IMG/VR virus record: IMGVR_UViG_3300035701_000360
Location: 1-20,466 of that record
Origin: a virus
Direction: 5' to 3' (one strand)
Length of the DNA stretch: 20,466 nt
The position numbers and the translations under genes are program-made. The notes under the pieces are model-generated. The model was not told where the DNA came from. It was given only the letters and a program-made list of their open reading frames with translations, and did not search any database. Of the stretch, positions 133-20,302 are shown one piece after another. Position 1 is the first letter of the stretch. Each line of letters starts with the position of its first letter.

Positions 133-133
133 T

Positions 134-2199: not shown

Positions 2200-2210
2200 T
2201 GCAGCCGCGA

Positions 2211-2666
2211 TTAATTTTTTCTTTCTTGTCCCCCCAAAGCATTCAGGTCAAGAATAATACCGAGCATTTTATAACGGTCAACCAGAGAAAAGAATTGCGA
2301 AGGCTTTCCGCCGACAGGTAGTGCCGCCGCGCCCTCACCTTTCCATGATATGAGCGTGGTGTCAACAAGCCGGTTCAAAGCGTCCAGTTCTTTTTTGTCC
2401 GCCTCTTCGGTGGATTGCTCTTTGCGCGAAAGCTCAATAGCCCGGTCGCGTACAGCTTTAGGTTTTGCGTCTTTGTCCAGGGCCGGGCTTTCGGCCTCAA
2501 TCTGCTTTTGAGCTTCCGCAAGATACGGCTGGAAATTAGAATTGATCTGGCGCAGAACGCTTTTTATCGCAAGCTCCGCCGCATCAGTCATGGGCTTAAA
2601 AAAATAGGTTATGCCGCTTTCCTTGTCTTCGTGCGGCATCTCCACGTCAAGAGAAACTGGAATCAT
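2211..2666 (-). CDS. Tail assembly chaperone (lambda gpG-like)
   Basis: This 151-aa protein is mainly helical and acidic, beginning MIPVSLDVEMPHEDK. It sits between the tail tube genes and the tape measure gene, the position of lambda G. The frame can be extended to a TTG at 2684. The ATG at 2666 is preferred because GGGGAGGG lies just upstream of it and would otherwise fall inside the coding sequence. The protein ends GGQERKN-stop, and the last 25 nt contain two heptamers that fit -1 frameshifting. Gene G products coat the tape measure protein during tail assembly. The identification rests on position plus the frameshift signal, not on a recognised domain. Confidence 0.7.
   Translation of the reverse strand: MIPVSLDVEMPHEDKESGITYFFKPMTDAAELAIKSVLRQINSNFQPYLAEAQKQIEAESPALDKDAKPKAVRDRAIELSRKEQSTEEADKKELDALNRLVDTTLISWKGEGAAALPVGGKPSQFFSLVDRYKMLGIILDLNALGGQERKN
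2214..2235 (-). promoter_or_regulatory. Programmed -1 frameshift site in G/T tail chaperone genes
   Basis: On the minus strand the end of G reads G GGG GGA CAA GAA AGA AAA AAT TAA. The A AAA AAT heptamer (2214-2220) has the X XXY YYZ form in the zero frame, directly before the G stop. Nine nt upstream is a run of six G (2230-2235), the position of the SD-like stimulator in the dnaX frameshift site. That run is itself a second candidate heptamer, G GGG GGA (2229-2235). Eight nt downstream, GCTGCAA (2199-2205) can pair with TTGCAGC (2149-2155) as a stimulatory stem. The -1 frame continues without a stop into the T ORF. Confidence 0.75.
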
Positions 2667-2690
2667 AAAAAACCCTCCCCGCAAAAGTTT

Positions 2691-3644
2691 TTATTTTGTG
2701 TTGAGCGTGATTGTGAAATCGTTACGCTCGAAAAGCCCTTCTAAATCCCAGGTTTCCACCCCCGCCTCGTCGCTGTTCGTGATATTTGTAATCTGTCCGT
2801 ATGCCGAAGTCCATTTGTATTTTTGAGGAACAGCACCGTATTCGATCGTAACGGCCCCAAGGGTCTTTCCCAGTAAAGCAGTTTCAGGGTCGCAGGTTGC
2901 CGGAAGTTCTTTGTAGGCTTTTGCCTTCCATTTTATTTTACGCTTGGTTACAATCGTAAGGCCCTGGCCGTAGGTTGCCGCCGGGTTAATGGTAAGCGCC
3001 GCTTCCTGGCCCATGTCGATTTCGGCATTGATAACTTTGTAGTCGTTATCGCCATTTATTGTAAGCGTAGAGGCACCAAGGAAGGCGCTGGCAAGAGTTC
3101 GGATCTTCGTAGGAGTTGGAGCCGTCGCCGCCGCCGGTATTCCATCATACATGAATTTTCCGGTAATGTCCATGACTGTGGGCTTGCCTGCCTCGAAAGT
3201 CCACTTGGGAATTAATATACCACTGCTCATTTTTCGCAGTATGGCGCCGGAAGCGTCAAGGTTTCCAGAGTACCCCCAGGCCGTGCAATCCACCATAGAG
3301 CCAAGAACGGACGTAGGAGTGTAAATAAAAATGCCGTCAACGGCTTCGGCCACGGTAAAGCAGGACATTCCCAAGAGCGCCCCAAATTGGCTTGGAGTGT
3401 CAGATCCGCCCGAGCGCGCGTAAACCTTAAAGGAAAGGTCGCAAGAGGTCAAACCCGGTATGCTGGCATCCTGGTCAAAGCTTCCGCCTACAAGATCAAT
3501 TTCAGTCATACCAAAATTTGGCTTGAGCGTGGCCGGGCCTATGGTTTCGATAATATTTGTAGCATCCAAATCTGTTTTTGCCGTACCATAAGCTGATTGT
3601 GCCTTAACCAAAAGCATGGAGAGATTGATTGCCTGCTTTGCCAT
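2691..3644 (-). CDS. Major tail tube protein, second paralogue
   Basis: This 317-aa protein is probably a tail tube subunit (lambda gpV role), forming the stacked rings of the siphovirus tail. It is closely related to the gene just upstream (3655-4632). Shared blocks include MAKQ.INL at the start, QDASIPG, IPKWTFE, AEIDMGQEAALT, KRKIKWKAK, DPETALLGKT, GQITNI.NSDE, GVETWD and FERNDFTI near the end. It has a good SD (AAGGAG, 7 nt before ATG) that overlaps the stop codon of the preceding gene. Its place before the G/GT chaperones fits a tail tube gene. One of the two paralogues may instead form a specialised ring or decorate the tube. Confidence 0.7.
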   Translation of the reverse strand: MAKQAINLSMLLVKAQSAYGTAKTDLDATNIIETIGPATLKPNFGMTEIDLVGGSFDQDASIPGLTSCDLSFKVYARSGGSDTPSQFGALLGMSCFTVAEAVDGIFIYTPTSVLGSMVDCTAWGYSGNLDASGAILRKMSSGILIPKWTFEAGKPTVMDITGKFMYDGIPAAATAPTPTKIRTLASAFLGASTLTINGDNDYKVINAEIDMGQEAALTINPAATYGQGLTIVTKRKIKWKAKAYKELPATCDPETALLGKTLGAVTIEYGAVPQKYKWTSAYGQITNITNSDEAGVETWDLEGLFERNDFTITLNTK

Positions 3645-3654
3645 GATTTACTCC

Positions 3655-4632
3655 TTATACCACATGGGTATATTGTATTATTGTGAAATCGTTTCTTTCA
3701 AAAATCCCTTCAATGTCCCATGTTTCCACACCGCCCTCGTCGCTGTTGGAAATGTTGGTGATCTGGCCATAGCTGGATGAAAAAGAATGCCGCTGTGGAA
3801 TCACTCCAAAGTCAAAAGTAACGGCTGCAATAGTTTTGCCAAGCAGTGCCGTTTCAGGATCAACAGTTGTGTCTTTGTAGATTTTGGCTTTCCATTTTAT
3901 TTTCCGCTTGGAAAAGATTGATTCCGCGCGCCCGTATGTGGCCCCGGCATCCACGGTCAAGGCCGCTTCTTGCCCCATATCAATCTCTGCGGATATGATT
4001 TGATAAAGCGCGCTGTTTAAAATAAGATGTGTATTAAGACCCATGAATGCAGGGGCAATGGTGCGCTGCTTGGTAAGTGCTGGTGTTGACGCGCTTGTTG
4101 GCTGTGTTGCAAGGGCAGACACGCCAGAATAGCACAGCTTGGCGGATAAATCCATAAGACAGGGCTTTCCAGTTTCAAATGTCCACTTGGGAATGAATAG
4201 GCCATTAAATGCTTTGTATAAAAAACAGGCGTTTGATCCTATCTGGCCGGAATACATCCAAGCCGTAAAATCCTTTTGCTCGGAGATTAAGGATGTGGGT
4301 ACATAGGTAAAGGTTCCGCCCGTAGGGGTGCTTTCGGTTTGCTTCATGCCTGCGCACTTTAAGAGCGTTCCCGCCTGGCCCGCAGCATCCGCGCCATTGC
4401 TGCGCATATGGACGGCGAGGGAAAGGTCAATCTCTTGTGCCCCCGGAATACTCGCATCCTGTTCAAACCCGCCGCCGATTAAATCTACCTCATTCGGGTT
4501 TGAATTCAATTTCAGTTTGGCAGGCCCGACGGTTTCGATAAAGTGCGCCGCCGTAAGCCCGGCCTGTTCGGCCCCCCAGGAATCCTGCGCCGATACCAAT
4601 AGAAGATCGAGATTTATAGATTGTTTTGCCAT
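3655..4632 (-). CDS. Major tail tube protein, first paralogue
   Basis: This 325-aa protein begins MAKQSINLDLLLVSAQ and is homologous over its full length to the following gene, with roughly half the positions identical by eye. It occupies the position of lambda V, right after the U-like terminator gene. The region before IPKWTFE and a Thr/Ala/Ser-rich loop near residues 180-195 (TQPTSASTPALT) differ most between the copies; a shorter loop (TAPTPT) stands there in the second copy. The SD is AAGGGG, 7 nt before the ATG. The two genes look like an old tandem duplication, since coding sequence and protein have diverged well beyond a recent copy. Confidence 0.72.
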   Translation of the reverse strand: MAKQSINLDLLLVSAQDSWGAEQAGLTAAHFIETVGPAKLKLNSNPNEVDLIGGGFEQDASIPGAQEIDLSLAVHMRSNGADAAGQAGTLLKCAGMKQTESTPTGGTFTYVPTSLISEQKDFTAWMYSGQIGSNACFLYKAFNGLFIPKWTFETGKPCLMDLSAKLCYSGVSALATQPTSASTPALTKQRTIAPAFMGLNTHLILNSALYQIISAEIDMGQEAALTVDAGATYGRAESIFSKRKIKWKAKIYKDTTVDPETALLGKTIAAVTFDFGVIPQRHSFSSSYGQITNISNSDEGGVETWDIEGIFERNDFTIIQYTHVV

Positions 4633-4635
4633 AAT

Positions 4636-5121
4636 TTACCCCTTCACGTAAGGATCTTTAAAATCCACAAAAGTTATTACCTTGAAAGTTAGGACAATCA
4701 TAAAAAGCGCTTCGCCGTCCGGCCCAATGTCGATAGTGTAGTAGGTTTCCGTCGGCTCTGTTGTAATGGCATACCCGCCGCGCGTGTGATCCGCCATGAT
4801 CCCTTTTATGAGATCGGGTGCCACATTATCGGTCTGTTGCGGGATCGGTTCCTCTGTGGCAATGGCATCATCGGAGAGTTTTGCTTTGTAGAGTAGCGTA
4901 TATTCGAGTTCGTAGCTGTCTGCCTGTGTCTGTCCTTGGTCGCGGTTTATGGTAATGGCCGGGCCAAGCACTTCCACCCGTGGATATCGGTTGTTTGTTC
5001 TATCGCTCAAGCGTTCCTGTTCGCAGTAAGCCACGTTGGTATTGTAATGGTTTGCCGTGGTTATGGCAGCAACGGACGTTACCACGTTCGCGGTAATCAA
5101 AGAGGTAATTGAATCAGCCAT
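4636..5121 (-). CDS. Tail terminator / completion protein (lambda gpU-like position)
   Basis: This 161-aa protein lies between the Z-like gene and the tail tube genes, exactly where lambda U is found. gpU-type proteins cap the tail tube and bind the head-tail connector. The protein is compact and mixed alpha/beta, with an internal beta-rich stretch (DSYELEYTLLYKAK) and a C-terminal strand-rich segment (GEALFMIVLTFKVITFVDF). These resemble terminator-fold proteins in outline only. The ATG overlaps the preceding gene by 8 nt. A GGAG lies about 10 nt upstream. No motif proves the assignment. Confidence 0.5.
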   Translation of the reverse strand: MADSITSLITANVVTSVAAITTANHYNTNVAYCEQERLSDRTNNRYPRVEVLGPAITINRDQGQTQADSYELEYTLLYKAKLSDDAIATEEPIPQQTDNVAPDLIKGIMADHTRGGYAITTEPTETYYTIDIGPDGEALFMIVLTFKVITFVDFKDPYVKG

Positions 5122-5884
5122 TTGGCCCTACTCCTTCCACGCCCCAGCGTCCGGCGTTTTTGCCTGCGTATCTTTCTTTTAAATCTCTACATGCCCTATT
5201 CAAAGCAGTCATGCCGCGCCTTATTACAGCGCCAGACTCACTATAAAATTGCTTGGAAAAATCAAAATGCTGTTTTATTTTTACCTGCTTTTTACCTATG
5301 AACATAAGTGCGTTTCTTTTAAACGGGTTCCCGCCGCGTTGACGTTTATATGTCATGTCCTTTTCAAACCATAAAAGCGTTCCACCCTTCCCCATGATTG
5401 GGGTTAAATTATCTTTAAATAAAAGTTCAAAATGCTTTTTAAAATTGCTTTCAATTCCCAAGCGCTTTAAATTTTTATAAACAGGCAAAGACATAAATCG
5501 GGAAGATGTTATTGTCCCGCCCCCCTTTGCCGCATCCATCATAGCCATGCCTTCCATGAATTTTGAAGGGTGTCGCAATCCAGAACCCATTTTTAAAGTC
5601 AAATCGTTCAAGTTCTCTTTGTTGTAAATGTACCCCTTGAAAGATTTTGCCAATTTCATAGGCCATTTCCCGCCGCGCCGGAAAGAATCGCTTGCGCCTT
5701 CCCCGCGTTTCAATCGTAATATCTGCTTTCGGAAAGCGCCGTCCTTGCCGCTGTTGTTTCCAACGTACCGGTCGCGCTCTGCGCCAAGCCAAGCCCGCAT
5801 AGTAATAAGAAACCGCTGCGGGGCTTCGTTAAGCATATTCTGTAAATTCGCGTGCCCCTTGAGGCTTGTGGATAGTGAAATCAT
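5114..5884 (-). CDS. Minor tail / virion morphogenesis protein (lambda gpZ-like position)
   Basis: This 256-aa, strongly basic protein is rich in Lys and Arg (LKERYAGKNAGRW near the C terminus). It sits between an FII-like connector gene and the U-like gene, the position of lambda Z, whose product is needed for head-tail joining. Family members are generally basic and poorly conserved, so position is the main evidence. Its ATG overlaps the upstream stop as ATGA, and its 3' end overlaps the next gene by 8 nt, so translation is probably coupled on both sides. A segment around residues 100-130 (SKFMEGMAMMDAAKGGG) is Met- and Gly-rich. An HK97 gp10-like neck protein is the alternative. Confidence 0.45.
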   Translation of the reverse strand: MISLSTSLKGHANLQNMLNEAPQRFLITMRAWLGAERDRYVGNNSGKDGAFRKQILRLKRGEGASDSFRRGGKWPMKLAKSFKGYIYNKENLNDLTLKMGSGLRHPSKFMEGMAMMDAAKGGGTITSSRFMSLPVYKNLKRLGIESNFKKHFELLFKDNLTPIMGKGGTLLWFEKDMTYKRQRGGNPFKRNALMFIGKKQVKIKQHFDFSKQFYSESGAVIRRGMTALNRACRDLKERYAGKNAGRWGVEGVGPNG

Positions 5885-6225
5885 GGCTTCAATCCCAAAT
5901 GCCAGGCCATAGGCGTATATCCTATAATCCCGGCCACGGTAAAAATATTCGTCTCTCCTCCAAATTCCGGGGAAGCAATAGAAACAGTGTCTTTTCCGAC
6001 CTTCACGGTTTCGATTCCGGCGGCTGCGGAAATAGAAATAACGATAGTGACTTCGTACATAACCGGCATTTTGTCAACCTTGGAGGAAACCTTTTTATTC
6101 CCCCCGTGATTAACGATTGCATAAATGCTTTTTGCTGCGGCCCCGTTTGCGGTATAGGAAATCATAGAGCGAAAAGGATTTTCCGCCCCGAGAATTGCCG
6201 CCGTGAATTCATCTGCAAGGTTCAT
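5881..6225 (-). CDS. Head-tail connector protein (lambda gpFII-like)
   Basis: This 114-aa protein starts MNLADEFTAAILGAENPFRSM, resembling the amphipathic start of FII-type head-tail joining proteins. Alternating beta-strands and turns follow (VMYEVTIVISISAAAG, DTVSIASPEFGGETNIFTVAGIIGY). The size matches lambda gpFII (117 aa). FII binds the bottom of the gpW ring and presents the interface for the tail. The gene follows the capsid-associated genes and precedes the Z-like gene, as in lambda. AAGGAAAT provides an SD close to the ATG. The assignment is by size, order and general sequence pattern. Confidence 0.5.
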   Translation of the reverse strand: MNLADEFTAAILGAENPFRSMISYTANGAAAKSIYAIVNHGGNKKVSSKVDKMPVMYEVTIVISISAAAGIETVKVGKDTVSIASPEFGGETNIFTVAGIIGYTPMAWHLGLKP

Positions 6226-6231
6226 ATTTCC

Positions 6232-6564
6232 TTATCGGCAAAGCTTTATTCCGCGCACCAATGTCCCGTTTTGTTTAAAAACATGGGCCGTGATCGGCGT
6301 ATCCTTCGCGTAATTTTGGTAAAGCTTTACAATGTTCCTGCGAAGGCAGGGAGTTCCGGCATTCGCCTGTAAAACCTCCGTCTTTACCTCGCCTGTTTGA
6401 TCTTGGAAGTCTATTTTAACAATGCCGGATACATCCACCTGGAAATAGTGGCAATTTGAAATATCAGGAACCACATTCTTGTCGCTGGCATCCAAAACCA
6501 CAACGTCGGTACATCCAACACCAGCCGTCGGAAGCATGTCTTGATTAAAACCACCTGGAGCCAT
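6232..6564 (-). CDS. Small beta-rich virion protein, function unknown
   Basis: This 110-aa protein contains short predicted strands (TDVVVLDASDKNVVP, CHYFQVDVSGIVKID, TPITAHVFKQNGTLVRGI) separated by turns, and no recognisable catalytic motif. Its pattern of 'hydrophobic strand, Asp-rich turn, G.V..... VLQANAGTPCLRRNIVKLY' loosely recalls the small spike-base/head-decoration proteins of some phages, but that link is weak. It sits directly below the terminator hairpin at 6589-6621. It has its own SD (AAAGGA, 6 nt from the ATG) and ends 6 nt before the FII-like gene. A head-completion or decoration role is inferred from position only. Confidence 0.55.
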   Translation of the reverse strand: MAPGGFNQDMLPTAGVGCTDVVVLDASDKNVVPDISNCHYFQVDVSGIVKIDFQDQTGEVKTEVLQANAGTPCLRRNIVKLYQNYAKDTPITAHVFKQNGTLVRGIKLCR

Positions 6565-6588
6565 AAGTGTCCTTTCACTCTTCGAGTT

Positions 6589-6621
6589 AAAAAAAGGGCG
6601 AGCGGTGTTTCACGCCCGCCC
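6589..6621 (-). terminator. Rho-independent terminator between head genes
   Basis: On the minus strand a GC-rich stem (5' arm GGGCGGGCGTG at 6611-6621, 3' arm CACCGCTCGCCC at 6596-6607) closes an AAA loop. It pairs through 9 bp including one G-T, then 2 bp after a bulge. Seven T residues (6589-6595) follow at once. This is a textbook intrinsic terminator facing the direction of gene transcription. It lies inside the head operon, after the capsid-associated genes and before the connector and tail genes, so it probably gives partial termination or needs antitermination. Confidence 0.8.
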
Positions 6622-6657
6622 CCTGTTTTTATTTTATTCCATCCATGATTCACATTT

Positions 6658-6984
6658 TCATTTTGTAAACATCTCGAATAACGGGAGAGTGTCGGCATCT
6701 ATTTTCTCTTCCTCATCCAACTTTAGGAAGATTTTTTTTAAACAATCAAGAATAATTTCGTTAAAAGAAAAGGATTTCATCGGATCAAGACTTGCCTTAT
6801 ACATAAAAGACATCCCGTTCCCGATTTGCCTTTCCACGTATTCTGTTGTTTTTATTTCTTCCACTGTAAGGGATAAATCCATAATACAATCACTGATGAT
6901 TTTACGTTTTGCAGCAGAGGAAACTATAGGCTGTAAAAGATTTGAAATTAAAATTCTATGTTTAATCGAAAGTTTTGTTTCCAT
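6658..6984 (-). CDS. Hypothetical small helical protein in head module
   Basis: This 108-aa protein (METKLSIKHRILISNLLQP...) is mainly alpha-helical, with charged ends and a hydrophobic middle. The frame could run to a GTG at 7026, but that would place the start inside the hairpin at 7021-7050. The ATG at 6984 has GGGGA about 9 nt upstream and is preferred. I do not recognise the family. Placement between the DUF2190 capsid protein and the FII-like connector suggests a head gene, perhaps in the place of lambda FI. A terminator lies 37 nt after the stop codon. Confidence 0.6.
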   Translation of the reverse strand: METKLSIKHRILISNLLQPIVSSAAKRKIISDCIMDLSLTVEEIKTTEYVERQIGNGMSFMYKASLDPMKSFSFNEIILDCLKKIFLKLDEEEKIDADTLPLFEMFTK

Positions 6985-7020
6985 TTTTCTTGTCCCCGCT
7001 AAAAAAGATTGGTTAAAGCA

Positions 7021-7050
7021 CCGCACCGATGTATTTCAACACCGGTGCGG
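7021..7050 (-). repeat. Stable hairpin between capsid-associated genes
   Basis: CCGCACCG and CGGTGCGG form a perfect 8-bp stem with a 14-nt loop in which TGT and ACA can pair further. It lies 20 nt after the stop of the DUF2190 gene and 36 nt before the next start. There is no immediate T tract on the minus strand; TTTTTT comes 13-18 nt later. It could stabilise the abundant capsid mRNA or pause polymerase. Confidence 0.65.
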
Positions 7051-7069
7051 GTTAATTAAGGCTCAAAAA

Positions 7070-8068
7070 CTATTCGTTTGTTACTTCGCCAGAACCATAA
7101 AGCGGCAAATAATATGTCACGCCATTTAATGTATCCCGCACTTTAGCAAGTGCGGAGCAGGTTCCAGATACGGTACTTGACGTAATCTTTACCGCATTCA
7201 GATATGCCGTTGCGGCGCCATTAAAACTGAATACGTTATCGCACCCAAGCAGATACAAACCGCAATCCCATGATCTTTTCGTGGCATGAGAAGGCGACAC
7301 AATGGCAGCGAAAGCCGCAATCACCGTATTGTTTGTAACGCCTGAGCTGGTAATTACGGAATCCGCAATTACTCCGGCCACGATAGCATTATTAACAAAA
7401 GCTGTTGCCGAATTTATGATTGTGGCAACAACGGCTCCAACATAAGTTGAAGTTGATCCCGCCGTTGAAACCGACGTTCCGCTGATTTCCAAATCAGCCC
7501 AGAATGCCGCACAGTTACCATTCAGAACGATTGTTCCACCGGCAATATCGTGTTCGGCAATCATGGCAAATGTTGAAGTATCATGCGTCTGCGTATGTGT
7601 GAGTGTGGCATACGCTTGAATGCAAGCATACCAGCTCGCGGCAACGTCAGTCGAAATTGTTCCACGGCAATCAATAGGAAATTTTGCACCAACAAGGGTC
7701 GTATTAGAAACAAAACCAACATTGATACCGTTGTTAATTTCCACATCAACATACCCCGCCGCTGCGGTTCCCGCCGATACAGCATAACCAAGAAAAAAGT
7801 CACCTTCTACCATTCCGGTAAGAATGATCTTGTTTTCACTGGCGTCCCAGAAACAGGCATCGCCCTGGGCAACGGTAACAGCAGTATAAATCGGGAAATT
7901 GAATACACCTTTTACGGCGTAGGCAATGCTTTCATTGGCTGCACCGGCCTCCATGGCTCGCAACACGCCAAGCCCAGCAACAAACAGAACTTCCCCAGCA
8001 GCAACAATCGAAGTATGTGCATACATGATTGTCTCAGGTATGCTTTTTTCTCTTACATAGGCTTCCAT
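7070..8068 (-). CDS. DUF2190-type capsid-associated protein with long C-terminal domain
   Basis: The first ~110 of 332 residues fit the DUF2190 pattern seen next to phage capsid genes: an N-terminal strand, then GEVLFVAGLGVLRAMEAGAANE, AVKGVFNFP, VTVAQGDACFWDASENKI and FFLGYAVSAGTAAAGYVDVEI. Such proteins decorate or stabilise capsids. DUF2190 proteins are usually about 110 aa; here ~220 further residues follow. These are Ala/Thr/Ser/Val-rich, apparently beta-structured, and end with GVTYYLPLYGS. The extra part may be an outward-facing domain. It follows the capsid fusion gene, the place of lambda D. AAGGAG lies 9 nt before the ATG. Confidence 0.7.
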   Translation of the reverse strand: MEAYVREKSIPETIMYAHTSIVAAGEVLFVAGLGVLRAMEAGAANESIAYAVKGVFNFPIYTAVTVAQGDACFWDASENKIILTGMVEGDFFLGYAVSAGTAAAGYVDVEINNGINVGFVSNTTLVGAKFPIDCRGTISTDVAASWYACIQAYATLTHTQTHDTSTFAMIAEHDIAGGTIVLNGNCAAFWADLEISGTSVSTAGSTSTYVGAVVATIINSATAFVNNAIVAGVIADSVITSSGVTNNTVIAAFAAIVSPSHATKRSWDCGLYLLGCDNVFSFNGAATAYLNAVKITSSTVSGTCSALAKVRDTLNGVTYYLPLYGSGEVTNE

Positions 8069-8096
8069 TTTGAAATCTCCTTATTTTGGTTTTGAA

Positions 8097-8122
8097 ATAG
8101 CCCCACGTTTAAGCAGGGCTAT
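8097..8122 (-). repeat. Hairpin after the major capsid gene
   Basis: ATAGCCC and GGGCTAT form a perfect 7-bp inverted repeat around a 12-nt loop. It lies 12 nt past the capsid stop codon and before the DUF2190 gene. Only TTTC follows on the minus strand, so a strong terminator is unlikely. A role in mRNA stability or partial attenuation fits the location. Confidence 0.55.
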
Positions 8123-8134
8123 CTCGTTTTTTAG

Positions 8135-10384
8135 TTAGTTACCATTGTTGTAGTACATCCCTCTCCAGTCGCCGAACATCCAACCGGAGTCAATGTATAC
8201 ATCCCACGAAATCCCAAGGGCTTCACCCACGCGCGAAGGCTCGCTGCGTAACGTCGGGGATTCGTTTCCATTCAGCGTAAGCCGAATAGCGGTATCTATG
8301 GAAGCGGGATTCGCGGCCAAATACCAACCTGCGTCAGTTCCGCTGTCGGAATTAACCAGGAAAGGCTCTATGATCGGCGTAAGCTGATACTTTCCACCGG
8401 GGCCGTATGGATTATACACGCCTGTCTGTCCGACGGTCGTCGAAGCCGCAATCAGGAAACCGGTATATACGATCTGATTAATCGTATCTTCCAGGGAAGG
8501 CCCGGCAATTATGAACTTTGGCGGAATATTTGTATATTGCGCTGCGGCCAAAGGATCGGGAGCAAGCATTTTGCGGGTCATCATGGCTTTGCGTCCAGCG
8601 CCTATCGTGGTCGAGCTGGGAGCTGCTCCGGAACCATGAGCAACATAGTTTCCGTGGCCTACTGTAGATGTCGCGTCGAACAAACGATACCCATCCTCTG
8701 TCATCAGTGGGCCAGCAATGTTGGTTATTGCCAAAAGCGTGTAAAGGTCGGCATTGATTTTGCGTTCTACACTGTCCCCGACAAGCTGAGGGATGCGTGT
8801 AAATACGCTTTGATCGTCATTGATGAGTGCCTGGCGGGAAATGGTGTAGGACTTTCCCAAAGTCGAAAGATTTCCAACTTCTTTTTTGTCCTTGAATGCA
8901 CCGGTTTTGAACGCGGCACCTTCGGCAATTATTTCCAAATCGCTGAAATTGGAAATCGCGGCCTGGGTGAACTGCTTGAAATCGGCTACCGATTGTGAAC
9001 GTGTCCACTGACGGTATGTCGTCGGGGCTGCTACAATACCGGCGGCAATACTTTTGTTAATCGTGTCGGCCAGAATGTTCGCAAAATCCCCGGTTCCCTG
9101 TGAAACAAGGTTAAGAATTGACATTGCAACGGAGCTATTCGACATTGCTGCAACGCCCTTCACGCCTGCGCGTTCAAGGCTTACCCGCGCAAGGGCAAGC
9201 ATCCCACGGGCACCGCCCTGGGTGCGCGCATCCTGAATGTCCTTCGGATCTTTGAGCGTCCCGGCAACATCCATGAGGGATTTGGTATGCAGGGCAACGA
9301 ATTTGTCTTTCTCGTCGGTGGGATTGGCGGAGGTGGATTTGGGAATAACCACGGTGCCGTCCGCAACGGCTTTGTTAAAAGTCTTGGAAGCGTCCGCATA
9401 GGAAACGCCGTCGGATATGGCTTTCTCCACCATTTCCGCCTTGATGTTCAGCATCTTCCCGGCTGCGGTTATGTCCGTTACGCGCGCGCGCTCTTCGTTT
9501 TTTGCGGCCAGAGCTGCGGCATCCGACGCGGCCTTGCCATCCGTCGGGTTTATGGCCAGCGCATCCATATACGCTTTCAGTTGATTCTGGGCGGCTATGT
9601 CGCCCGTTGCGGCCTTGTCTCTTAAGGCTTTGAGCTGTTCGGGTGTCATTTGGACATCCTCCTGTATTTTGGGTTTGATTTCATTTTGACTTTTGGCGGG
9701 GACAGCGGGCGGTTCTCCTCCTTTGTTTTGAGGCGTCGGTTTCCCCTGAACCAAAGCCTGAATTTTTTTAGGAACATTCTTGAATTGTTTAAAAATTTCA
9801 TTATCGGACATAGCCGCGAAGTGCACGGCCACATCTTCCGGTTTATCGTTCTTGATTATCTCGTCAGCGAATCCAAAGGTTTTAGCTTCGTCCGCGTCCA
9901 TCCAGGTTTCCTCTTCCATCATTTGATGTAAGTCGGCATCGGACAAATCTTTTATTTTCGTTTTGTAAGCTTTTACAATGTTATTTTCGATTTTGTCCAA
10001 AACGTCTGCGCTTTTACGAAGTTGGGGAGCGTTACCAATGGATAAAACAAGCGGTTTGTGAATCATCATTACCGAGGTGTCGTACATGGTTATTTTATCG
10101 CCGGACATAACGATAACAGAAGCGATTGAAGACGCCTCGGCGTCCACGAAAATATTTACCTGGGCTTTGTGTTCGTTCAGGACGTTATAAATTGCGATAC
10201 CGTCGAACACGTCCCCGCCGGGTGAATTGATATGCACGTTCAAGGTTTCTATGTCATCGTATTGCTTTAAATCGGCAATGAATTCGCTGGCCGAAATATC
10301 CCAAGCGCCGATAATCCCATAGATTGAAAGTTCGGCTGTCTTATTTTCTTTTTGGCAAACAAGATCGTACCAGGTTTTAAGCAT
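8135..10384 (-). CDS. ClpP-type prohead protease / scaffold / major capsid protein fusion
   Basis: This 749-aa protein joins functions that lambda splits among C, Nu3 and E. Residues ~1-180 are an S14/ClpP-fold prohead protease. HINSPGGDVFDG (51-62) is the oxyanion-side motif, ASSIAS (84-89) contains the likely nucleophile Ser86, and MMIHKP (106-111) contains likely catalytic His109. The acidic partner cannot be assigned safely. A Pro/Lys-rich linker (~212-240) leads to a helical scaffold-like region (~246-410). The HK97-fold capsid protein occupies the C-terminal ~340 residues (AIAAGIVAAPTTYRQW onward). It overlaps the portal gene by 8 nt (ATGCTTAA). An internal SD and ATG at Met246 should yield a nested 504-aa protein. 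Such fusions are known in other phages. The maturation cleavage site is not evident. Confidence 0.88.
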   Translation of the reverse strand: MLKTWYDLVCQKENKTAELSIYGIIGAWDISASEFIADLKQYDDIETLNVHINSPGGDVFDGIAIYNVLNEHKAQVNIFVDAEASSIASVIVMSGDKITMYDTSVMMIHKPLVLSIGNAPQLRKSADVLDKIENNIVKAYKTKIKDLSDADLHQMMEEETWMDADEAKTFGFADEIIKNDKPEDVAVHFAAMSDNEIFKQFKNVPKKIQALVQGKPTPQNKGGEPPAVPAKSQNEIKPKIQEDVQMTPEQLKALRDKAATGDIAAQNQLKAYMDALAINPTDGKAASDAAALAAKNEERARVTDITAAGKMLNIKAEMVEKAISDGVSYADASKTFNKAVADGTVVIPKSTSANPTDEKDKFVALHTKSLMDVAGTLKDPKDIQDARTQGGARGMLALARVSLERAGVKGVAAMSNSSVAMSILNLVSQGTGDFANILADTINKSIAAGIVAAPTTYRQWTRSQSVADFKQFTQAAISNFSDLEIIAEGAAFKTGAFKDKKEVGNLSTLGKSYTISRQALINDDQSVFTRIPQLVGDSVERKINADLYTLLAITNIAGPLMTEDGYRLFDATSTVGHGNYVAHGSGAAPSSTTIGAGRKAMMTRKMLAPDPLAAAQYTNIPPKFIIAGPSLEDTINQIVYTGFLIAASTTVGQTGVYNPYGPGGKYQLTPIIEPFLVNSDSGTDAGWYLAANPASIDTAIRLTLNGNESPTLRSEPSRVGEALGISWDVYIDSGWMFGDWRGMYYNNGN
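9647..9663 (-). promoter_or_regulatory. Internal SD and start codon for nested scaffold-capsid protein
   Basis: AGGAGGA (9657-9663, minus strand) lies 8 nt upstream of an in-frame ATG (9647-9649), codon 246 of the protease-capsid fusion. It is among the best SD matches in the window and falls in the linker between protease and scaffold regions. Initiation here would give a 504-aa scaffold-capsid protein in excess over the protease fusion, as lambda Nu3 is made from within C. Confidence 0.75.
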
Positions 10385-12041
10385 TTACGGCCTCTTTCTG
10401 TTTTTTATTTTTTACGCTTTTCGCTTTCGGCTTTACGGGTTCAATAATCGCCAGTTCCTCGCTTGTGGTTGCGGCTTCGGGCATTGTTTTCGTTCCCGCT
10501 TGGCGCTCGATTAAATCTTCCAGACCCTTTTCTTTTAGAACCGCGCGCTCTTCCATCAAAGTGTCGGTATGTTCGTCAAAGTCCCCGCCACGCTTTCCGA
10601 CAACATAGTGCATTGTATAAGCGCCCGATTTCAGACCTTCGTTATCGGCCTGAATGTCCTTTAATGGGTCAACATTTAACCGCCCGTTTCCAAACCATTC
10701 AACTTCGTAGAAATCATAGGGGTTTTTTGCGAAAACGGTGGGAGTGACTCCTGGAATTTCCCCTTTGATTATCATAAGAAGGACGGCTTTTTCATAGAAT
10801 GGATCGCAATAATCGTCGATAAAATAATCTCGAACCATTGACGAAATTTTCCATTCTACGTTATCCACGCCTTGGGAAGCTGCATAATTAACCCCCTTCA
10901 TATTTCGCGTAACAGTGCTATAAGAGGTTCCAAGATTTGAGCAAATGCCGTGCTGCAACATTTCAACAAGAGGCAAAACCGTATCGCTTACGGAGTCTGG
11001 CATTTTCAGTAATTCCGGCGCTTCCTCTGTTCGCATCTGGCTCAAAGGTTCCAGGCCGATAACAGAATCGGCGTCCTGGTCGCCCGCATTGGGTATGCCG
11101 TCGTCCATTTTTGTGGATAGCCACCATAAAACTTTTGCAATGGCGCGGCTTTTCAAAACGTAATCTTCTTTCAAATCTTGCAAATCGAAAACCTCATCCA
11201 ACGCAGCAACAGCGGCGGGGATGCCTATATATTGCTCTGGTCGGTCAGAAGCCATAAAAGAATGGATAATGTTTTTGGCCGGAACCGCGCTTGAAATGCC
11301 TTTAAAAAGATAGGACACCGGAGCCCCAAACTCATCCAGGTTAATGCCATGAATGGTTTGTTTAATATTCTCGCTCTGCCATGTCTGCTTTAAAAGCATA
11401 TCATGCGTGGTGTCGAGCCGGTCGCTTTCGGTTTGCTGCCACATAACAGGAAGGAAGGCACCGTCACGGGAAGTAACGGCATTCATGATAAAATCTCCGC
11501 TTACAAGAATGGTTTTAAGGGCAAGCCGCTGTCCTTCCCCTACCCAGTGCATTTTCTTCCGGGCATCCCATTCCTGCCTGCGGGCATATTTCCAGAAGGC
11601 TTTTTCGATTGCTTTATTTATGGTTTTATCCGGTTTGCCGTCTTTTCCAAGAACTTTTGGCTTGGGGCGCAGTCCCGTGCCGATAACATTTGTAACAACC
11701 ATATTTATTGCGGCCCGGTACGTGGAATCGTTTTTGTAAAGATTGCGACTGCGGGCAACAAGAATTCCATGAGCACCGGAAAGCTCGTTGTAGGGTACAT
11801 CCGTTGCATAGCCCCAATCTTCCCGCGTGCGGCCAGTGCGTGCTCCGTCGTAGGTTCCCGCTTCATTCCTGAATCCATTCCTGGCAAAATTCCGGTTGCG
11901 TTCGCTCTTGATTACGTACTGAACAAGATTTTGCAAATCCTGGACGCGGTAATTACTGGCCTGCTGTTTGCCCCGCAAAAGGCCAAACGCTTCACGCGCG
12001 CGGGCAAGAAAGGGCTGCGGCTTGTGTGCAATGGCTCTCAT
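10377..12041 (-). CDS. Portal protein (lambda gpB family)
   Basis: This 554-aa protein forms the dodecameric DNA entry pore of the capsid. The N-terminal third is typical of the lambda portal family: ARSRNLYKNDSTYRAAINMVVTNVIGTGLRP (residues ~97-127), and MHWVGEGQRLALKTILVSGD follows near 165-185. Later segments, such as IHSFMASDRPEQYIGIPAAVAALDEVFDLQDLKEDYVLKSRAIAK and the Ser-Tyr-rich TSYSTVTRNMKGVNYAA, also fit. Length is close to lambda gpB (533 aa). The C-terminal 40 residues are Lys/Glu-rich and variable. The ATG follows the gpW-like stop by 2 nt without an SD, so it probably depends on coupled translation. Confidence 0.92.
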   Translation of the reverse strand: MRAIAHKPQPFLARAREAFGLLRGKQQASNYRVQDLQNLVQYVIKSERNRNFARNGFRNEAGTYDGARTGRTREDWGYATDVPYNELSGAHGILVARSRNLYKNDSTYRAAINMVVTNVIGTGLRPKPKVLGKDGKPDKTINKAIEKAFWKYARRQEWDARKKMHWVGEGQRLALKTILVSGDFIMNAVTSRDGAFLPVMWQQTESDRLDTTHDMLLKQTWQSENIKQTIHGINLDEFGAPVSYLFKGISSAVPAKNIIHSFMASDRPEQYIGIPAAVAALDEVFDLQDLKEDYVLKSRAIAKVLWWLSTKMDDGIPNAGDQDADSVIGLEPLSQMRTEEAPELLKMPDSVSDTVLPLVEMLQHGICSNLGTSYSTVTRNMKGVNYAASQGVDNVEWKISSMVRDYFIDDYCDPFYEKAVLLMIIKGEIPGVTPTVFAKNPYDFYEVEWFGNGRLNVDPLKDIQADNEGLKSGAYTMHYVVGKRGGDFDEHTDTLMEERAVLKEKGLEDLIERQAGTKTMPEAATTSEELAIIEPVKPKAKSVKNKKQKEAVNA

Positions 12042-12043
12042 TT

Positions 12044-12268
12044 TCAGTTTTTGCCGATAAAGCGGAATTTGTCAAACATCGACGTGCGCGCATTGCGGCC
12101 CGTCCTGGCCTTGAGCCAGTCATAGGTCTGGGTTAGAAGGTTAAGCGGGGGGCGTTGGTACTCTACGCGGTTCCCTGTGGCGTCCTGTATGGACGTTTTG
12201 GGGTCGCCGGTGAGGTCGGCAGCTATTTTTGTTTCGAGGAGTGTGACATCGGTTGAGTCTATACCCAT
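12044..12268 (-). CDS. gpW-like head-tail joining protein
   Basis: This 74-aa protein matches gpW (68 aa in lambda) in size and in position directly before the portal gene. The core 'DPKTSIQDATGNRVEYQRP....L' parallels gpW, in which a Val-Gln-Lys-Asp-Gly-Arg-Arg-Val-Glu turn precedes a C-terminal helix. gpW plugs the portal channel after DNA packaging. There is no SD before the ATG. Instead a consensus-like promoter places the -10 box exactly 6 nt upstream, so the mRNA may start at the ATG itself (leaderless). The start codon is therefore supported by promoter spacing rather than by a ribosome binding site. Confidence 0.7.
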   Translation of the reverse strand: MGIDSTDVTLLETKIAADLTGDPKTSIQDATGNRVEYQRPPLNLLTQTYDWLKARTGRNARTSMFDKFRFIGKN

Positions 12269-12274
12269 GCCGAT

Positions 12275-12303
12275 AAGATAAGCGCATAAACCAAGGATGT
12301 CAA
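12275..12303 (-). promoter_or_regulatory. Sigma-70-type promoter for gpW and head operon
   Basis: A perfect -35 TTGACA (12298-12303), a 17-bp spacer and a -10 TATCTT (12275-12280) lie on the minus strand. The -10 is followed by 6 nt and then the gpW ATG at 12268, so the predicted +1 coincides with the A of ATG. Four 11-bp repeats end 24 bp upstream of the -35 box. It could drive the late head and tail genes. Confidence 0.7.
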
Positions 12304-12326
12304 ACCGCGAATGGTATTTAGTACCA

Positions 12327-12370
12327 CCTTATCAACACGTTTATCACAGGTTATAAACAAGTTATCAACA
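12327..12370 (-). repeat. Four contiguous 11-bp direct repeats upstream of the head promoter
   Basis: Read on the minus strand from 12370 the units are TGTTGATAACT, TGTTTATAACC, TGTGATAAACG and TGTTGATAAGG, with no gap between them. A weaker fifth unit, TGGTACTAAAT, occupies 12316-12326. The 11-bp period puts all copies on nearly the same DNA face. On the plus strand the units read TTATCAACA-like, one mismatch from the DnaA box TTATCCACA. They could bind a phage activator or repressor of the adjacent promoter, or DnaA or a replication protein. A further TGTTGATAG lies at 12751-12759. Confidence 0.8.
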
Positions 12371-12419
12371 TCCTTGTGCGCACCGATTTTTATACCTATG
12401 CCCTATATAAAGCAATGGC

Positions 12420-12641
12420 TTATAGCCCGCTTAGTGTCGTTTGCGGGTATTCTGTCAACATTCTGCACCCTTGAGCCCATTTTGCAGAACTGCGCGTCCG
12501 GCGTACATTGAAATGGCATAGATACCGGGAAAAGGTCGTGATCGGTAGCACGTTGCCCCATGACGCTTTGGCAGAAGTACGGATCGGGCTTATCCCTACC
12601 GTATCCAGCTTGTTTTTAGGAAAAACCCTGTTAAAAACCAT
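12420..12641 (-). CDS. Small basic ORF or non-coding RNA with its own promoter (uncertain)
   Basis: A 73-codon frame (MVFNRVFPKNKLDTVGISP...) begins 6 nt after a -10 box TATCTT, the same geometry as at gpW and the ligase. The product is basic, Ser/Thr/Arg-rich and unlike any family I know, and its composition looks only partly protein-like. A weak GGGA lies 4 nt before the ATG. The same transcript could be a regulatory RNA. Near its 3' end, GGCTATAAGC and GCTTTATATAG can form an imperfect hairpin. The coding call is therefore weak; the transcription start is better supported than the protein. Confidence 0.25.
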   Translation of the reverse strand: MVFNRVFPKNKLDTVGISPIRTSAKASWGNVLPITTFSRYLCHFNVRRTRSSAKWAQGCRMLTEYPQTTLSGL

Positions 12642-12753
12642 ATTCCCAAGATAAAAAATGTTTTTTACGATTGCAAATGAAGGATAATTCTTTTAATTAC
12701 CGGATGCAAGCCAATGTATGTATTTAATACAGGCGCGGGTTATTGATCAACTA
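12642..12753. other. AT-rich upstream part of the regulatory gap
   Basis: The gene-free stretch 12269-12753 holds, in minus-strand order, a 13-nt near-palindrome TGTATTAAATACA around 12716-12733, the AT-rich promoter at 12648-12676, the 12420-12641 ORF/RNA, the 11-bp repeats and the gpW promoter. The near-palindrome could be an operator, but nothing else supports this. No terminator with a T tract is seen after the zinc-ribbon gene that ends at 12754. Confidence 0.4.
12648..12676 (-). promoter_or_regulatory. Promoter-like sequence in the regulatory gap
   Basis: TTGCAA (12671-12676), 17 bp, then TATCTT (12648-12653), then 6 nt to an ATG at 12641. The -10 box is identical to that of the gpW promoter and the spacer has the same length. 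The -35 box matches consensus at 4 of 6 positions and the spacer is A/T-rich, so the site is weaker than the other two. Confidence 0.45.
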
Positions 12754-12960
12754 TCAACAATAAATGCACTGACTATATTTTCCGCAGGCATAGCATTGCC
12801 AAACAGGATCGCCGTTGACGGAATAAGTGCGAATTTTCCCACTAAGCGAGCCACATTTAGGACACCTCCTGCGTGCTATCAAATATTTTTTTGTTACCGG
12901 ATCGAGTTCGGGCGGGCCGGGGAGCGGGGAGAGGTCGGGCAATAGCGGGCGGGTTCTCAT
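12754..12960 (-). CDS. Small zinc-ribbon protein
   Basis: This 68-aa protein has a Pro-rich N terminus (LLPDLSPLPGPPELDP) followed by a zinc ribbon: CPKC (33-36) and CYAC (56-59), with a further CIYC (65-68) at the very C terminus. The six Cys could bind one or two zinc ions. Such ribbons typically bind nucleic acid or partner proteins. The ATG overlaps the stop of the radical SAM gene as ATGA, so the two are probably made together. It is the last gene of the ligase-led cassette before the regulatory gap. Its function is unknown. Confidence 0.65.
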   Translation of the reverse strand: MRTRPLLPDLSPLPGPPELDPVTKKYLIARRRCPKCGSLSGKIRTYSVNGDPVWQCYACGKYSQCIYC

Positions 12961-13736
12961 TTCGCCGCGAATAAATCAGCCTGACGTGCGCCCTCTTTTA
13001 CGATAACTCCAGGGCAAGCAGCGGCCAGGTCGTTTTTTATGTAGTAGCTTTTTCCTGCGGCTTCCAGAATCTTAATCGCCTGCATCAAAAATGCCTGCCA
13101 GTCTATCGCGTTCGCGCGGGTGTCATGGTTCCATTTTCCGATTTTGTAATGGTCAACAAAGCCAAGGGTTTTTTCGAGAAGCTCAAGGCTTTGCGCTGGG
13201 TCAATCACGGGCTCCAGGCTGGCCCAGGTTTTAATTCCAAGCTGATGTAAAAATAAAAGAGTATCCACCCTTTCGGCGGGAAGTGCGGCCCCCGGTTCCC
13301 ATTCCAGGGAATCGACTTCGTTGTCAAAAGTAAGCGTTGCGCCTATTTTTATTTCCTTTTTGAACGCTTTGAAAATGGTAACGTCGGCCAGGCATCGGTT
13401 GCCGCCCTTAGTTAAAATGGAAACGGGAAACTCGCATTTATTCAAAATTAAAAGAGCATCGCGGGTGATTCTGCATTCCGGTTCGGCTTTACAGTAAGGG
13501 TCGCCCGTAAAGGAAAGTAAAATCTGTTTGCGCTCAAGATACAAAACCTCTTTGCGCATGGCTTCGATAATCCCGGGCCGGGGAATTGGTTTTGCCTCCT
13601 GCGTATTTCTACCTTTGAATCCGGGTATCGAATTTACAAAACAATATTTACATCCATGATCACATGAATTGTAAAGATTCAAAGCCATTGGAGAATACTC
13701 GCGGGCTCGGCCTGCGGGAACATAAATTGCGTTCAT
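12957..13736 (-). CDS. Radical SAM protein, SplB/spore photoproduct lyase-like
   Basis: This 259-aa protein carries the radical SAM cluster motif CxxxCxxC as C25-DHG-C29-KY-C32 near its N terminus. The cluster binds a 4Fe-4S centre that splits S-adenosylmethionine. Flanking sequence fits the SplB-like DNA repair photolyase group: SPMALNLYNSCDHGCKYCF, then LLSFTGDPYCKAEPECRITRDAL and FPVSILTKGG, then a barrel strand TWASLEPVID. True spore photoproduct lyases are longer (about 340 aa) and repair thymine lesions in spores, so this smaller relative may act on another DNA or nucleotide substrate. Overlaps (ATGA) on both sides tie it to two zinc-ribbon genes, with a DNA ligase upstream. Confidence 0.82.
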   Translation of the reverse strand: MNAIYVPAGRAREYSPMALNLYNSCDHGCKYCFVNSIPGFKGRNTQEAKPIPRPGIIEAMRKEVLYLERKQILLSFTGDPYCKAEPECRITRDALLILNKCEFPVSILTKGGNRCLADVTIFKAFKKEIKIGATLTFDNEVDSLEWEPGAALPAERVDTLLFLHQLGIKTWASLEPVIDPAQSLELLEKTLGFVDHYKIGKWNHDTRANAIDWQAFLMQAIKILEAAGKSYYIKNDLAAACPGVIVKEGARQADLFAAK

Positions 13737-13900
13737 TTTACCCTGCCTTTTTTTGAAACGGTAAATCTTACAATTGGTTTATCCCAATACGGGCTTTTGC
13801 AAAGGGCGCAAACCTTGGGCTTTTTAATTTTTCCATCCGGCGGGATTTTCGGCCACCATGATTTTCCGCAGCGCAGGCAATGCCATTTTTTCACTTCCAT
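13733..13900 (-). CDS. Mini zinc-ribbon protein between ligase and radical SAM genes
   Basis: This 55-aa protein begins MEVKKWHCLRCGKSWW and has CLRC (8-11) and CALC (31-34), followed by KSPYWDKP. The pattern CxxCG.xWxP ... CxxCxSPYWDKP is a small zinc ribbon common in phages and archaea, thought to bind nucleic acid or act as a regulator. Its ATG shares a base with the ligase stop codon (TAATG), and its TGA overlaps the radical SAM start (ATGA), which strongly supports the reading frame. It is the second gene of a tightly packed four-gene cassette. Confidence 0.75.
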   Translation of the reverse strand: MEVKKWHCLRCGKSWWPKIPPDGKIKKPKVCALCKSPYWDKPIVRFTVSKKGRVK

Positions 13901-14769
13901 TATTGTACCGATCCTGCTTTTTTTCCGTTTACTGAAAAATTTACCACGAATTTCCCGCTTTTGTTTTGCGTGACCGATACACCAATAGAAAGCGGAGCGA
14001 ATCGTTGAAAGCCTTCATAATTGCGCTCGCAAACATAAACGGGTTCGCGCGGAATGCCGGAATCGGTAAGGCACTTATAAGAAAAAGTAACTTTCGAGCC
14101 AATTGCAGGCGGTTTTTTTCGGTCTTTATCAGTTAGACCAGTGCCTAAATTAAATTTTTTGCCTTTCCATTTACAGATAAGCGCCCCGGTCAGACCGTAA
14201 TATTTACCCTTCCCCGCCTCGTATCCTATAACCTCTGCCTCGTCCGTTTCGATTGGCTTGTATTTTAGCATTCTGTCAGAGCGCCGATATTCATATTTAG
14301 AGTTTGGGTCACGGATAATAACGCCCTCGGCCCCGGTATCGCAAAGCGTTTTGAAATATTCTTCCAGGTGTTTTTGGCTTTTGCAGGTGATTTGCCTAAC
14401 AGGGGATGCAACCCGGTTGCCGCGCAATAATTCACGGCAGTATTGCAGTTTGTTTTTAAAAACTCCATCAACGCAAGGAAGATCGAAAACGCAGTAAACT
14501 ATTTTTTTCCATTCCGAATCTGCGGGCTTATTTTTGCTAACAGCTGCAATTGTTTGCTGAAATTTCCCACGGCCTGCGAATAATTCACCGTCCATGTGAA
14601 CGGGCGGAAGCTGTTGAGTGAACCACTTAGGGGCAAAGAATTTATTCCCGTTTCGGCTGGTCAGTTGTTTACCGTCCCACGTGGCCCGTACCCCGTCCAA
14701 CTTCTCCGACATAAGCCAGCCCGTAACGTCCTGGCCAGTATATTTCTTAGCAAGCATTGCTGGTTCCAT
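13900..14769 (-). CDS. ATP-dependent DNA ligase
   Basis: This 289-aa enzyme seals DNA nicks through a lysine-AMP intermediate. Motifs appear in order. Motif I is EKLDGVR, with adenylated Lys23. Arg39 lies in SRNGN. Motif III is DGELFAGRG (60-68), IIIa is VYCVFDLP (91-98), IV is EGVIIR (148-153) and V is LKYKP (168-172). An OB-fold domain follows (~175-262). It is a minimal ligase without an N-terminal DNA-binding domain. The last ~27 residues (from IGVSVTQNKSGKF) form a Ser/Asn/Lys-rich tail of unknown role. No SD precedes the first ATG; a strong promoter fits a leaderless start at 14769. A start at Met5 (14757), with a weak GGAA, is possible. Confidence 0.92.
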   Translation of the reverse strand: MEPAMLAKKYTGQDVTGWLMSEKLDGVRATWDGKQLTSRNGNKFFAPKWFTQQLPPVHMDGELFAGRGKFQQTIAAVSKNKPADSEWKKIVYCVFDLPCVDGVFKNKLQYCRELLRGNRVASPVRQITCKSQKHLEEYFKTLCDTGAEGVIIRDPNSKYEYRRSDRMLKYKPIETDEAEVIGYEAGKGKYYGLTGALICKWKGKKFNLGTGLTDKDRKKPPAIGSKVTFSYKCLTDSGIPREPVYVCERNYEGFQRFAPLSIGVSVTQNKSGKFVVNFSVNGKKAGSVQ

Positions 14770-14775
14770 AATTCA

Positions 14776-14804
14776 AATATATACTATCTCGAACATATTG
14801 TCAA
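14776..14804 (-). promoter_or_regulatory. Strong sigma-70-type promoter for the ligase cassette
   Basis: TTGACA (14799-14804), a 17-bp spacer and TATATT (14776-14781) lie on the minus strand. This is a perfect -35 box, and the -10 box matches consensus at five of six positions. Six nt separate the -10 box from the ligase ATG, so the predicted +1 is the A of ATG. The promoter lies in the 41-nt gap after the ParB-like gene and probably gives the ligase, zinc-ribbon and radical SAM genes independent expression. Confidence 0.75.
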
Positions 14805-15314: not shown

Positions 15315-15505
15315 GATTTACCTTTGATAATTTTTAATTGTAGCTCTTTCAATGTTTTATGGAGAAGTATAGTAAAATCGTTTTTCTTGAATTTTCCATT
15401 CGCCATAAATTTAGCCCTGGCTTTTAAAACATAATCACCCATTAAACAATTCACGCATGTCTTTAACGGGCAACAATCACAATAACTGCGCTGTTTTTTA
15501 TTCAT
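15311..15505 (-). CDS. Small Cys-rich protein
   Basis: This 64-aa protein starts MNKKQRSYCDCCPLKTCVNC, with five Cys in twelve residues (C9, C11, C12, C17, C20), likely metal-binding. A Lys-rich helical tail follows. The frame can be extended upstream to a TTG at 15544, but the ATG at 15505 is preferred. It overlaps the last 8 nt of the immunity gene (ATGAATAA), and it puts the Cys cluster at the N terminus. The SD is weak, so coupling to the immunity gene is likely. I do not recognise the family. Confidence 0.55.
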   Translation of the reverse strand: MNKKQRSYCDCCPLKTCVNCLMGDYVLKARAKFMANGKFKKNDFTILLHKTLKELQLKIIKGKS

Positions 15506-15665
15506 GGGTACACGCCCAGACAAGGGCCACAACCCACCCGACAAGTGTCCACCCTAAGAAAAAATTAAGAACAAGAATCGCCGTAAAATTCTTTTTGTTC
15601 CATCCGGCAATGGACGGCAAAAAATACACAGCAATAAAAAGCAGCACCAAAAGAATAGTTCCCAT
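15498..15665 (-). CDS. Superinfection immunity (Imm-like) membrane protein
   Basis: This 55-aa protein has two transmembrane segments: ~4-20 (ILLVLLFIAVYFLPSIA) and ~28-51, separated by a short basic loop (GWNKKN). The second segment carries ILVLNFFLGWTLVGWVVALV. 'YFLP.I' followed by 'LN..LGWT..GWVVALVWA' is the signature of the superinfection immunity family, which includes relatives of T4 Imm. These inner-membrane proteins block DNA entry by a second phage. The start is supported by GAGGGGG, 5 nt before the ATG. It lies among packaging-operon genes rather than in a lysogeny region, so it would be expressed with virion genes or from read-through. Confidence 0.82.
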   Translation of the reverse strand: MGTILLVLLFIAVYFLPSIAGWNKKNFTAILVLNFFLGWTLVGWVVALVWACTHE

Positions 15666-19492: not shown

Positions 19493-19534
19493 TCAGTCCT
19501 TTTTAAAAATAAACCATACCACACCCGACCGAAC

Positions 19535-19671
19535 CTGCCCTGCCTTGCCGGGCCAAGCCATGCCTCGCCATGCCTGCCATGCCATGCCACGCCGCGCCTT
19601 GCCGGGCCAAGCCATGCCTGCCGTGCCATGCCAAGCCAAGCCAGGCCTCGCCTCGCCATGCCGTGCCTTGG
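19535..19671. repeat. Degenerate NNGCC pentanucleotide array
   Basis: About 27 consecutive units of the form NNGCC (mostly AT, AA, TT, GT, TC, GG as NN) fill 137 bp, with two 4-base slips. Within it a 24-bp segment is repeated exactly (19542-19565 and 19596-19619), indicating internal duplication. It lies in the 189-nt gap between the gene ending at 19682 and the small terminase. It has no spacers and no plausible coding on either strand. It may be a packaging recognition site or a host-type dispersed repeat. Confidence 0.85.
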
Positions 19672-19681
19672 CTACTAAAAA

Positions 19682-20302
19682 CTAATTCACCCTCTCAAAC
19701 CGCCCCCACCCCAGCGCACTCGTCCGCTCCGGTCTCCCCTCACATATCCCCACTCCCCACCCCGCCTGGTCAACCAAAGCTAAAAGCTGCTCCTTGCTAA
19801 CAATACGCGGATTAAACTCAATCGAAATCCGCAATTGCCATTCCTTATATTCCGGCCTGTACGTCAACCCGCGAACATTCATCCCGATCGTAACCGCATC
19901 CTCACGCATTACACCAATAGCCGCTTTACCTCCATAAGTCTCAATAGGTATAAGCGATGACCCAGGCGAGGCAATCGAATCAACGAAAATTGCCTGCCGC
20001 AATCCCGTCTTTGTTATATCCTCAAACGCCGTCGCAGCACTGATAATGCTTTTCTTCAACGCGGTTATAGGTGCACATTCTAAACCTCTCGCATCAATAT
20101 ATCGCGCAGCCAAACATTCAGCCTGTGGATCACGCTGCGCAAAAGCCTTCTTGGCTTTCTTCTGCTGCTTGTCCCGTATCTCCTGCTTCGCTTTTTCAGC
20201 AAAAGCATGAATAACCAACGGTGAGCCCTTCCGGCCATGCAAAGTTATTTCAACTTTCTGAATCCCCACTTCTGCACTCGACTTAATAGGTGTCTTTTCC
20301 AT
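19682..20302 (-). CDS. Phage protein of unknown function, 206 aa
   Basis: The protein starts MEKTPIKSSAEVGIQKVEITLHG. A Lys/Gln-rich helix follows (EKAKQEIRDKQQKKAKKAF), then IDARGLECAPITALKKSIISAA. The C-terminal half is beta-rich and ends with 'LLALVDQAGWGVGICEGRPER....GWGRFE'. This closing motif, of the type 'GvG.wRPe..G.yGrF', recurs in phage proteins I recall from packaging-gene neighbourhoods, but no function is known to me. SD GGGGAGA lies 5 nt before the ATG. It precedes the repeat array and small terminase and may be the last gene of the early or middle region. Confidence 0.7.
   Translation of the reverse strand: MEKTPIKSSAEVGIQKVEITLHGRKGSPLVIHAFAEKAKQEIRDKQQKKAKKAFAQRDPQAECLAARYIDARGLECAPITALKKSIISAATAFEDITKTGLRQAIFVDSIASPGSSLIPIETYGGKAAIGVMREDAVTIGMNVRGLTYRPEYKEWQLRISIEFNPRIVSKEQLLALVDQAGWGVGICEGRPERTSALGWGRFERVN

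Follow-up and report, generated by a model that had tools for sequence, protein, structure and literature searches.

Promoters placed six nucleotides before ATG predict leaderless mRNAs for a DNA ligase module and a gpW-led head/tail unit in a lambda-like phage fragment

Leaderless mRNAs are known from several phages. The cI gene of phage lambda and the cI and cro genes of PY54 are leaderless, the 5′ ends in PY54 having been mapped by RACE (PMC4488713), and in the Thermus phage phiYS40 most middle and late mRNAs are leaderless, with IF2 raised and IF3 lowered (PMC3594737). In bacteria, a TANNNT element some 12 bp ahead of the start codon is a mark of leaderless genes (PMC3160421 and PMC12340547; reviewed in PMC9031893).

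Two gene starts in the phage fragment described here resemble those of lambda cI (promoter PRM) and PY54 cI and cro in having a strong promoter directly before the start codon, no Shine–Dalgarno (SD) sequence and an mRNA that, here by prediction, begins at the AUG. The lambda and PY54 genes are regulators of lysogeny, whereas the two genes of this fragment, each heading an operon, encode a DNA ligase and a head-joining protein. The likeness to phiYS40 lies in many non-regulatory phage genes being leaderless; there, however, this is the rule for middle and late genes, and the host itself has many leaderless genes. A genome-wide scheme of that kind is not seen in our window, in which only two starts are predicted to be leaderless and most others are SD-led or coupled. 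With the TA-led leaderless genes of Actinobacteria and Deinococcus-Thermus the two starts share the TANNNT element and its distance of about 12 bp from the start codon, but here it belongs to a full −35/N17/−10 promoter and is not only a −10 element. The first-pass annotation of this DNA had presented leaderless operon heads as a distinctive control scheme; the scheme has precedents in lambda, PY54 and phiYS40, and the arrangement is ordinary in kind and useful as a rule.

The window, by which we mean the whole 20,466-base stretch analysed, is a complete IMG/VR record and represents a fragment of a lambda-like tailed phage. All main genes are on the minus strand, in the order terminase, ParB-like gene, ligase module, gpW-like gene, lambda-type portal, ClpP-protease/capsid fusion and more downstream genes. 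Heading the four-gene ligase module is an ATP-dependent DNA ligase (13900–14769; PF14743 and PF01068). The remainder of the module (12754–13900, minus strand) encodes a Cys-rich small protein (13733–13900), a radical SAM protein (12957–13736; related to the PA0069/Rv2578c families, under their cut-offs) and a zinc ribbon (12754–12960), neighbouring genes overlapping by 1–4 nt. Beyond a non-coding stretch of about 485 nt lies the gpW-like head-tail joining gene (12044–12268, minus strand), which heads the head/tail unit and is tentatively assigned by a weak match to phrog_75 (E 0.0057) together with its position just before the portal gene; the protein has no Pfam match, and a low-confidence structural model gives it a helix-hairpin-helix-helix arrangement. 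The portal gene (10377–12041, minus strand; PF05136) has no SD, starts 2 nt past the gpW stop and is probably translationally coupled to gpW. Elsewhere in the window, a small membrane protein (15498–15665, minus strand) matches the superinfection immunity family PF14373 (E 1.4e-13), and a strongly C-rich repetitive stretch (19500–19660) adjoins the terminase small subunit gene, GC skew being −0.38 over 19501–20000.

Exact matches to TTGNNA-N17-TATNTT-N6-ATG occupy 12266–12303, 12639–12676 and 14767–14804, all on the minus strand, confirming the identical geometry that the first-pass annotation had reported for three promoters; the reversed pattern has no match in the window. The comparison with shuffled sequence that it had proposed gives 0 expected matches against the three found (100 dinucleotide shuffles), a figure that flatters because the pattern was fitted to these three sites. 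Promoter strength was scored as a neutral count of matches to TTGACA/TATAAT. The highest sigma70-like score in the window, 11/12, belongs to the ligase promoter (TTGACA-N17-TATATT, 14776–14804), and the gpW promoter (TTGACA-N17-TATCTT, 12275–12303) is joint second with 10/12. The third promoter-like site (TTGCAA-N17-TATCTT, 12648–12676), before a 73-codon open reading frame (ORF), reaches only 8/12, under the threshold of the promoter scan and absent from its list. Of the three proposed promoters, two are borne out, and the third is both weak and followed by an ORF that is non-coding by codon usage, as set out below.

At both strong sites the −10 element ends exactly 6 nt before the start codon (at 12268 and 14769), the distance used to recognize leaderless starts being 6, with a range of 5–8. 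Among the six minus-strand sites in the window that score at least 10/12, these are two lying exactly N6 before gene starts, for which random placement gives P of about 3e-5, or about 1e-3 if any distance from 0 to 30 is allowed. Sites of at least 8/12 in the window have no enrichment of ATG at N6 (4 observed, 1.9 expected, P 0.145), and a post-hoc scan of the window alone for a shared promoter–ATG distance gives P 0.18 as the maximum over distances at 9/12 or better. With every distance admitted, the window by itself shows nothing significant, and for this reason an external population test was used. A third 10/12 minus-strand site with ATG at N6 (3701–3648, −10 at 3677–3672) is probably due to chance; its ATG opens only a five-codon ORF (MWYKE), which begins inside the end of another gene and covers the SD of the gene at 2691–3644. 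The three sites can also be fitted, roughly, to a Bacteroidetes-type promoter, TTTG-N20-TAnnTTnG. SDs are generally missing from Bacteroidetes and present at most genes here, and this candidate was therefore set aside.

Both strong promoters stand before uncoupled starts without an SD, the lack of an SD being as first annotated: the duplex energies are −1.7 kcal/mol for gpW and +0.4 for the ligase, and most other starts in the window are SD-led or coupled, the other SD-less ones abutting or overlapping an upstream stop or being doubtful start calls. For gpW the start codon is unambiguous, since there is no ATG, GTG or TTG between the upstream in-frame stop and its ATG, nor within the next 40 codons.

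For the population test, IMG/VR was scanned for TTGACA-N17-TATATT followed by ATGR at 6, 10 or 3 nt, a success being an ATG that starts an ORF 60 or more codons long. Among the matches listed, with at most 120 loci per scan, the ligase form succeeded in 86 of 124 cases at N6, against 28 of 117 at N10 and 28 of 103 at N3; the gpW form, TATCTT, succeeded at N6 in 76 of 115 (Fisher 1e-12, 2e-10 and 6e-13 for the contrasts of N6, in either form, with N10 and N3). Distances from strong promoter-like sites to the ATGs of long ORFs were then collected over 447 loci (4.05 Mb) with the selecting matches removed. They form a sharp single peak at exactly N6 (30/55 ATGs) with a shoulder at 7–8, few cases at 1–5 and 9–18, and, beginning near 21, a broad hump of the kind that leadered, SD-led genes should give. 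The peak is present also in loci selected by N10 or N3 (24/37 in about 3 Mb, P 3e-7) and persists when protein families are collapsed (21 families against a mean background of 5.9, P 9e-6); among terminase-selected relatives alone, where counts are small, it is not significant (2/5, P 0.17). Sites scoring 8/12, the class of the third site, have no N6 excess in any pool (49/253 against a background of 0.18). Because gene starts behind strong promoters peak at N6 and those behind 8/12 sites do not, we take N6 as the mark of a real leaderless class in phages and estimate that, of the long ORFs lying at N6 downstream of a strong promoter, about 85% truly belong to it.

Judged from their sequence, the ligase and gpW starts very likely belong to this class. 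We therefore consider it probable, on the strength of the population test and the missing SDs, and for gpW also of the lack of any other possible start codon, that the ligase module and the gpW-led unit are each transcribed from their own sigma70 promoter, with +1 on the A of the first ATG (14769 and 12268, respectively) and the first gene leaderless. A host-type sigma70 promoter would precede the ligase module and a second one the gpW-led head/tail unit; with the RNA beginning at the A of the unit's first ATG, each unit would have its first gene translated from a leaderless mRNA, the 5′-terminal AUG being bound directly by a ribosome carrying fMet-tRNA, and the later genes would be reached through overlapping stop and start codons or their own SDs. 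In such a scheme the third site, in the roughly 0.5-kb non-coding stretch before gpW, would match by chance. The earlier prediction of transcription starting on the A of the ATG is accordingly retained for two of its three sites, the third having a weak promoter and a non-coding ORF. The accompanying proposal, that leaderless starts fall at exactly the points where operons begin, describes the ligase and gpW heads and fails at the other unit heads of the window (20302, 19492 and 8068), where an SD or a weak SD is present and an N6 promoter is absent.

The locus might instead be expressed in the ordinary leadered way, an upstream late promoter reading the head/tail genes, the SD-less gpW start being served by S1 or A/U-rich initiation, and the N6 boxes being fortuitous. 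Comparison with other phages lends this some weight. Searches with the portal, ligase and terminase against viral contigs, and with the capsid against genome contigs, returned no useful close relatives, the nearest terminases being less than 30% identical. In about 50 distant lambda-like relatives, the slot between terminase and portal is occupied by a small gene that mostly has an SD and often follows immediately on the terminase, and in none of them is it preceded by TANNNT at N6; hhalign found no match between the gpW-like protein and these slot genes. In addition, the RNA between 12641 and gpW has an unremarkable fold energy (12269–12641, z −0.79). The window differs from these relatives, however, in carrying the ligase module between terminase and gpW, so that gpW may need a promoter of its own; a likely reason for the arrangement is that a compact, self-sufficient promoter-plus-ATG cassette would give a start of both transcription and translation to the inserted unit and to the structural genes behind it. 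Leadered expression would also leave two strong sites falling exactly at N6 to chance (about 3e-5, or 1e-3 at any distance), in spite of the reality of the N6 class in phages, and, given a gap of about 480 nt and no SD, initiation at gpW on a long mRNA would be poor. We regard it as unlikely.

Among N6 genes of other phages the spacing is conserved. Homologous N6 genes keep N6 in 92 of 94 pairs at 80–95% identity and in 98 of 145 at 60–80%, counts that come partly from loci selected for N6; contigs L340, L349, L373 and L382, which were not so selected, are related phage contigs with several common N6 promoters and conserved spacing.

A second alternative concerns the ligase alone and accepts its promoter. 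Upstream of the first ligase ATG by two codons is an in-frame TGA, and later in-frame ATGs occur at codon 5 (14757) and codon 20. Translation from codon 5 would give a 12-nt leader, with the GGA 7 nt upstream of that ATG acting as a weak SD; the GGAACCAGCA-ATG spacing suits such a role, and MLAKKY is a plausible beginning for a ligase. Against it, GGA alone is weak, and the best homologue aligns from residue 1 and conserves the Pro just before the ‘xxLLA’ stretch. Codon 1 is favoured by this alignment, and a short leader appears quite improbable.

That all three sites are leaderless, the third driving a small 73-codon protein (12420–12641, minus strand), fits the common boxes and spacing but is very improbable, given the 8/12 class to which that site belongs and the properties of the ORF. 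With the genes of the window as the training set, its codon score comes to −0.18 bits per codon, within the range of non-coding frames (mean −0.12, s.d. 0.12) and below coding pieces (mean 0.22, s.d. 0.10), of which 0 of 69 score as low; gpW scores 0.134. Although the zinc-ribbon gene at 12754–12960 is also low (−0.15), it has family support, unlike the 73-codon ORF, which matches nothing in Pfam, PHROG or NCBIfam. The ORF was rejected as a gene on codon usage, and the site before it is indistinguishable from chance.

Rfam gave no match. By DNA similarity to phages and plasmids, the region between the ligase module and gpW yields only 22–41-base matches to microvirus records, or none. Within this region, and separated by 12 bp from the gpW −35 box downstream, is an 11-bp tandem array of five units (12316–12370, minus strand; TGTTGATAA/TGTTTATAA/TGTGATAAA/TGTTGATAA/TGGTACTAA). 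The units are TGTTGATAAnn and variants, four close and one loose, and the paired-unit pattern occurs 4 times against 0.19 expected. The array may comprise operator or DnaA-box-like sites.

The reading we prefer, of leaderless ligase and gpW starts, predicts, to the nucleotide, where two transcripts of this phage begin, and accounts for the translation of two operon heads that lack an SD. More broadly, a strong promoter with ATG at N6 can serve as a simple rule by which to recognize leaderless genes in uncultured phages, whose starts cannot be mapped directly, and the population signal singles out phages that may rely on leaderless translation. In the literature searched we found no survey of a −10 element next to ATG across uncultured phages, although one may exist. 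The 129 N6 genes fall into 95 families and include DNA polymerase, clamp loader, DNA ligase, ribonucleotide reductase, methyltransferases and a late sigma factor. Tentatively, leaderless sigma70 cassettes of fixed N6 geometry could be a widespread, little-described class in environmental phages, serving single genes or operon heads, several of them in replication and nucleotide metabolism; some phages, such as that of contig L547, would use one for many genes, and the phage described here would use two, to drive an inserted ligase module and restart the structural operon.

In contig L547 (IMGVR_UViG_3300025536_000038, positions 1–12055), about ten genes within 12 kb have the N6 geometry, and only one of the 28 ORFs shows an SD-like motif; this is possibly an almost fully leaderless phage. 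A phage contig of 57% GC (IMGVR_UViG_3300041779_000001, L100) has five N6 promoters, on both strands, within 13 kb.
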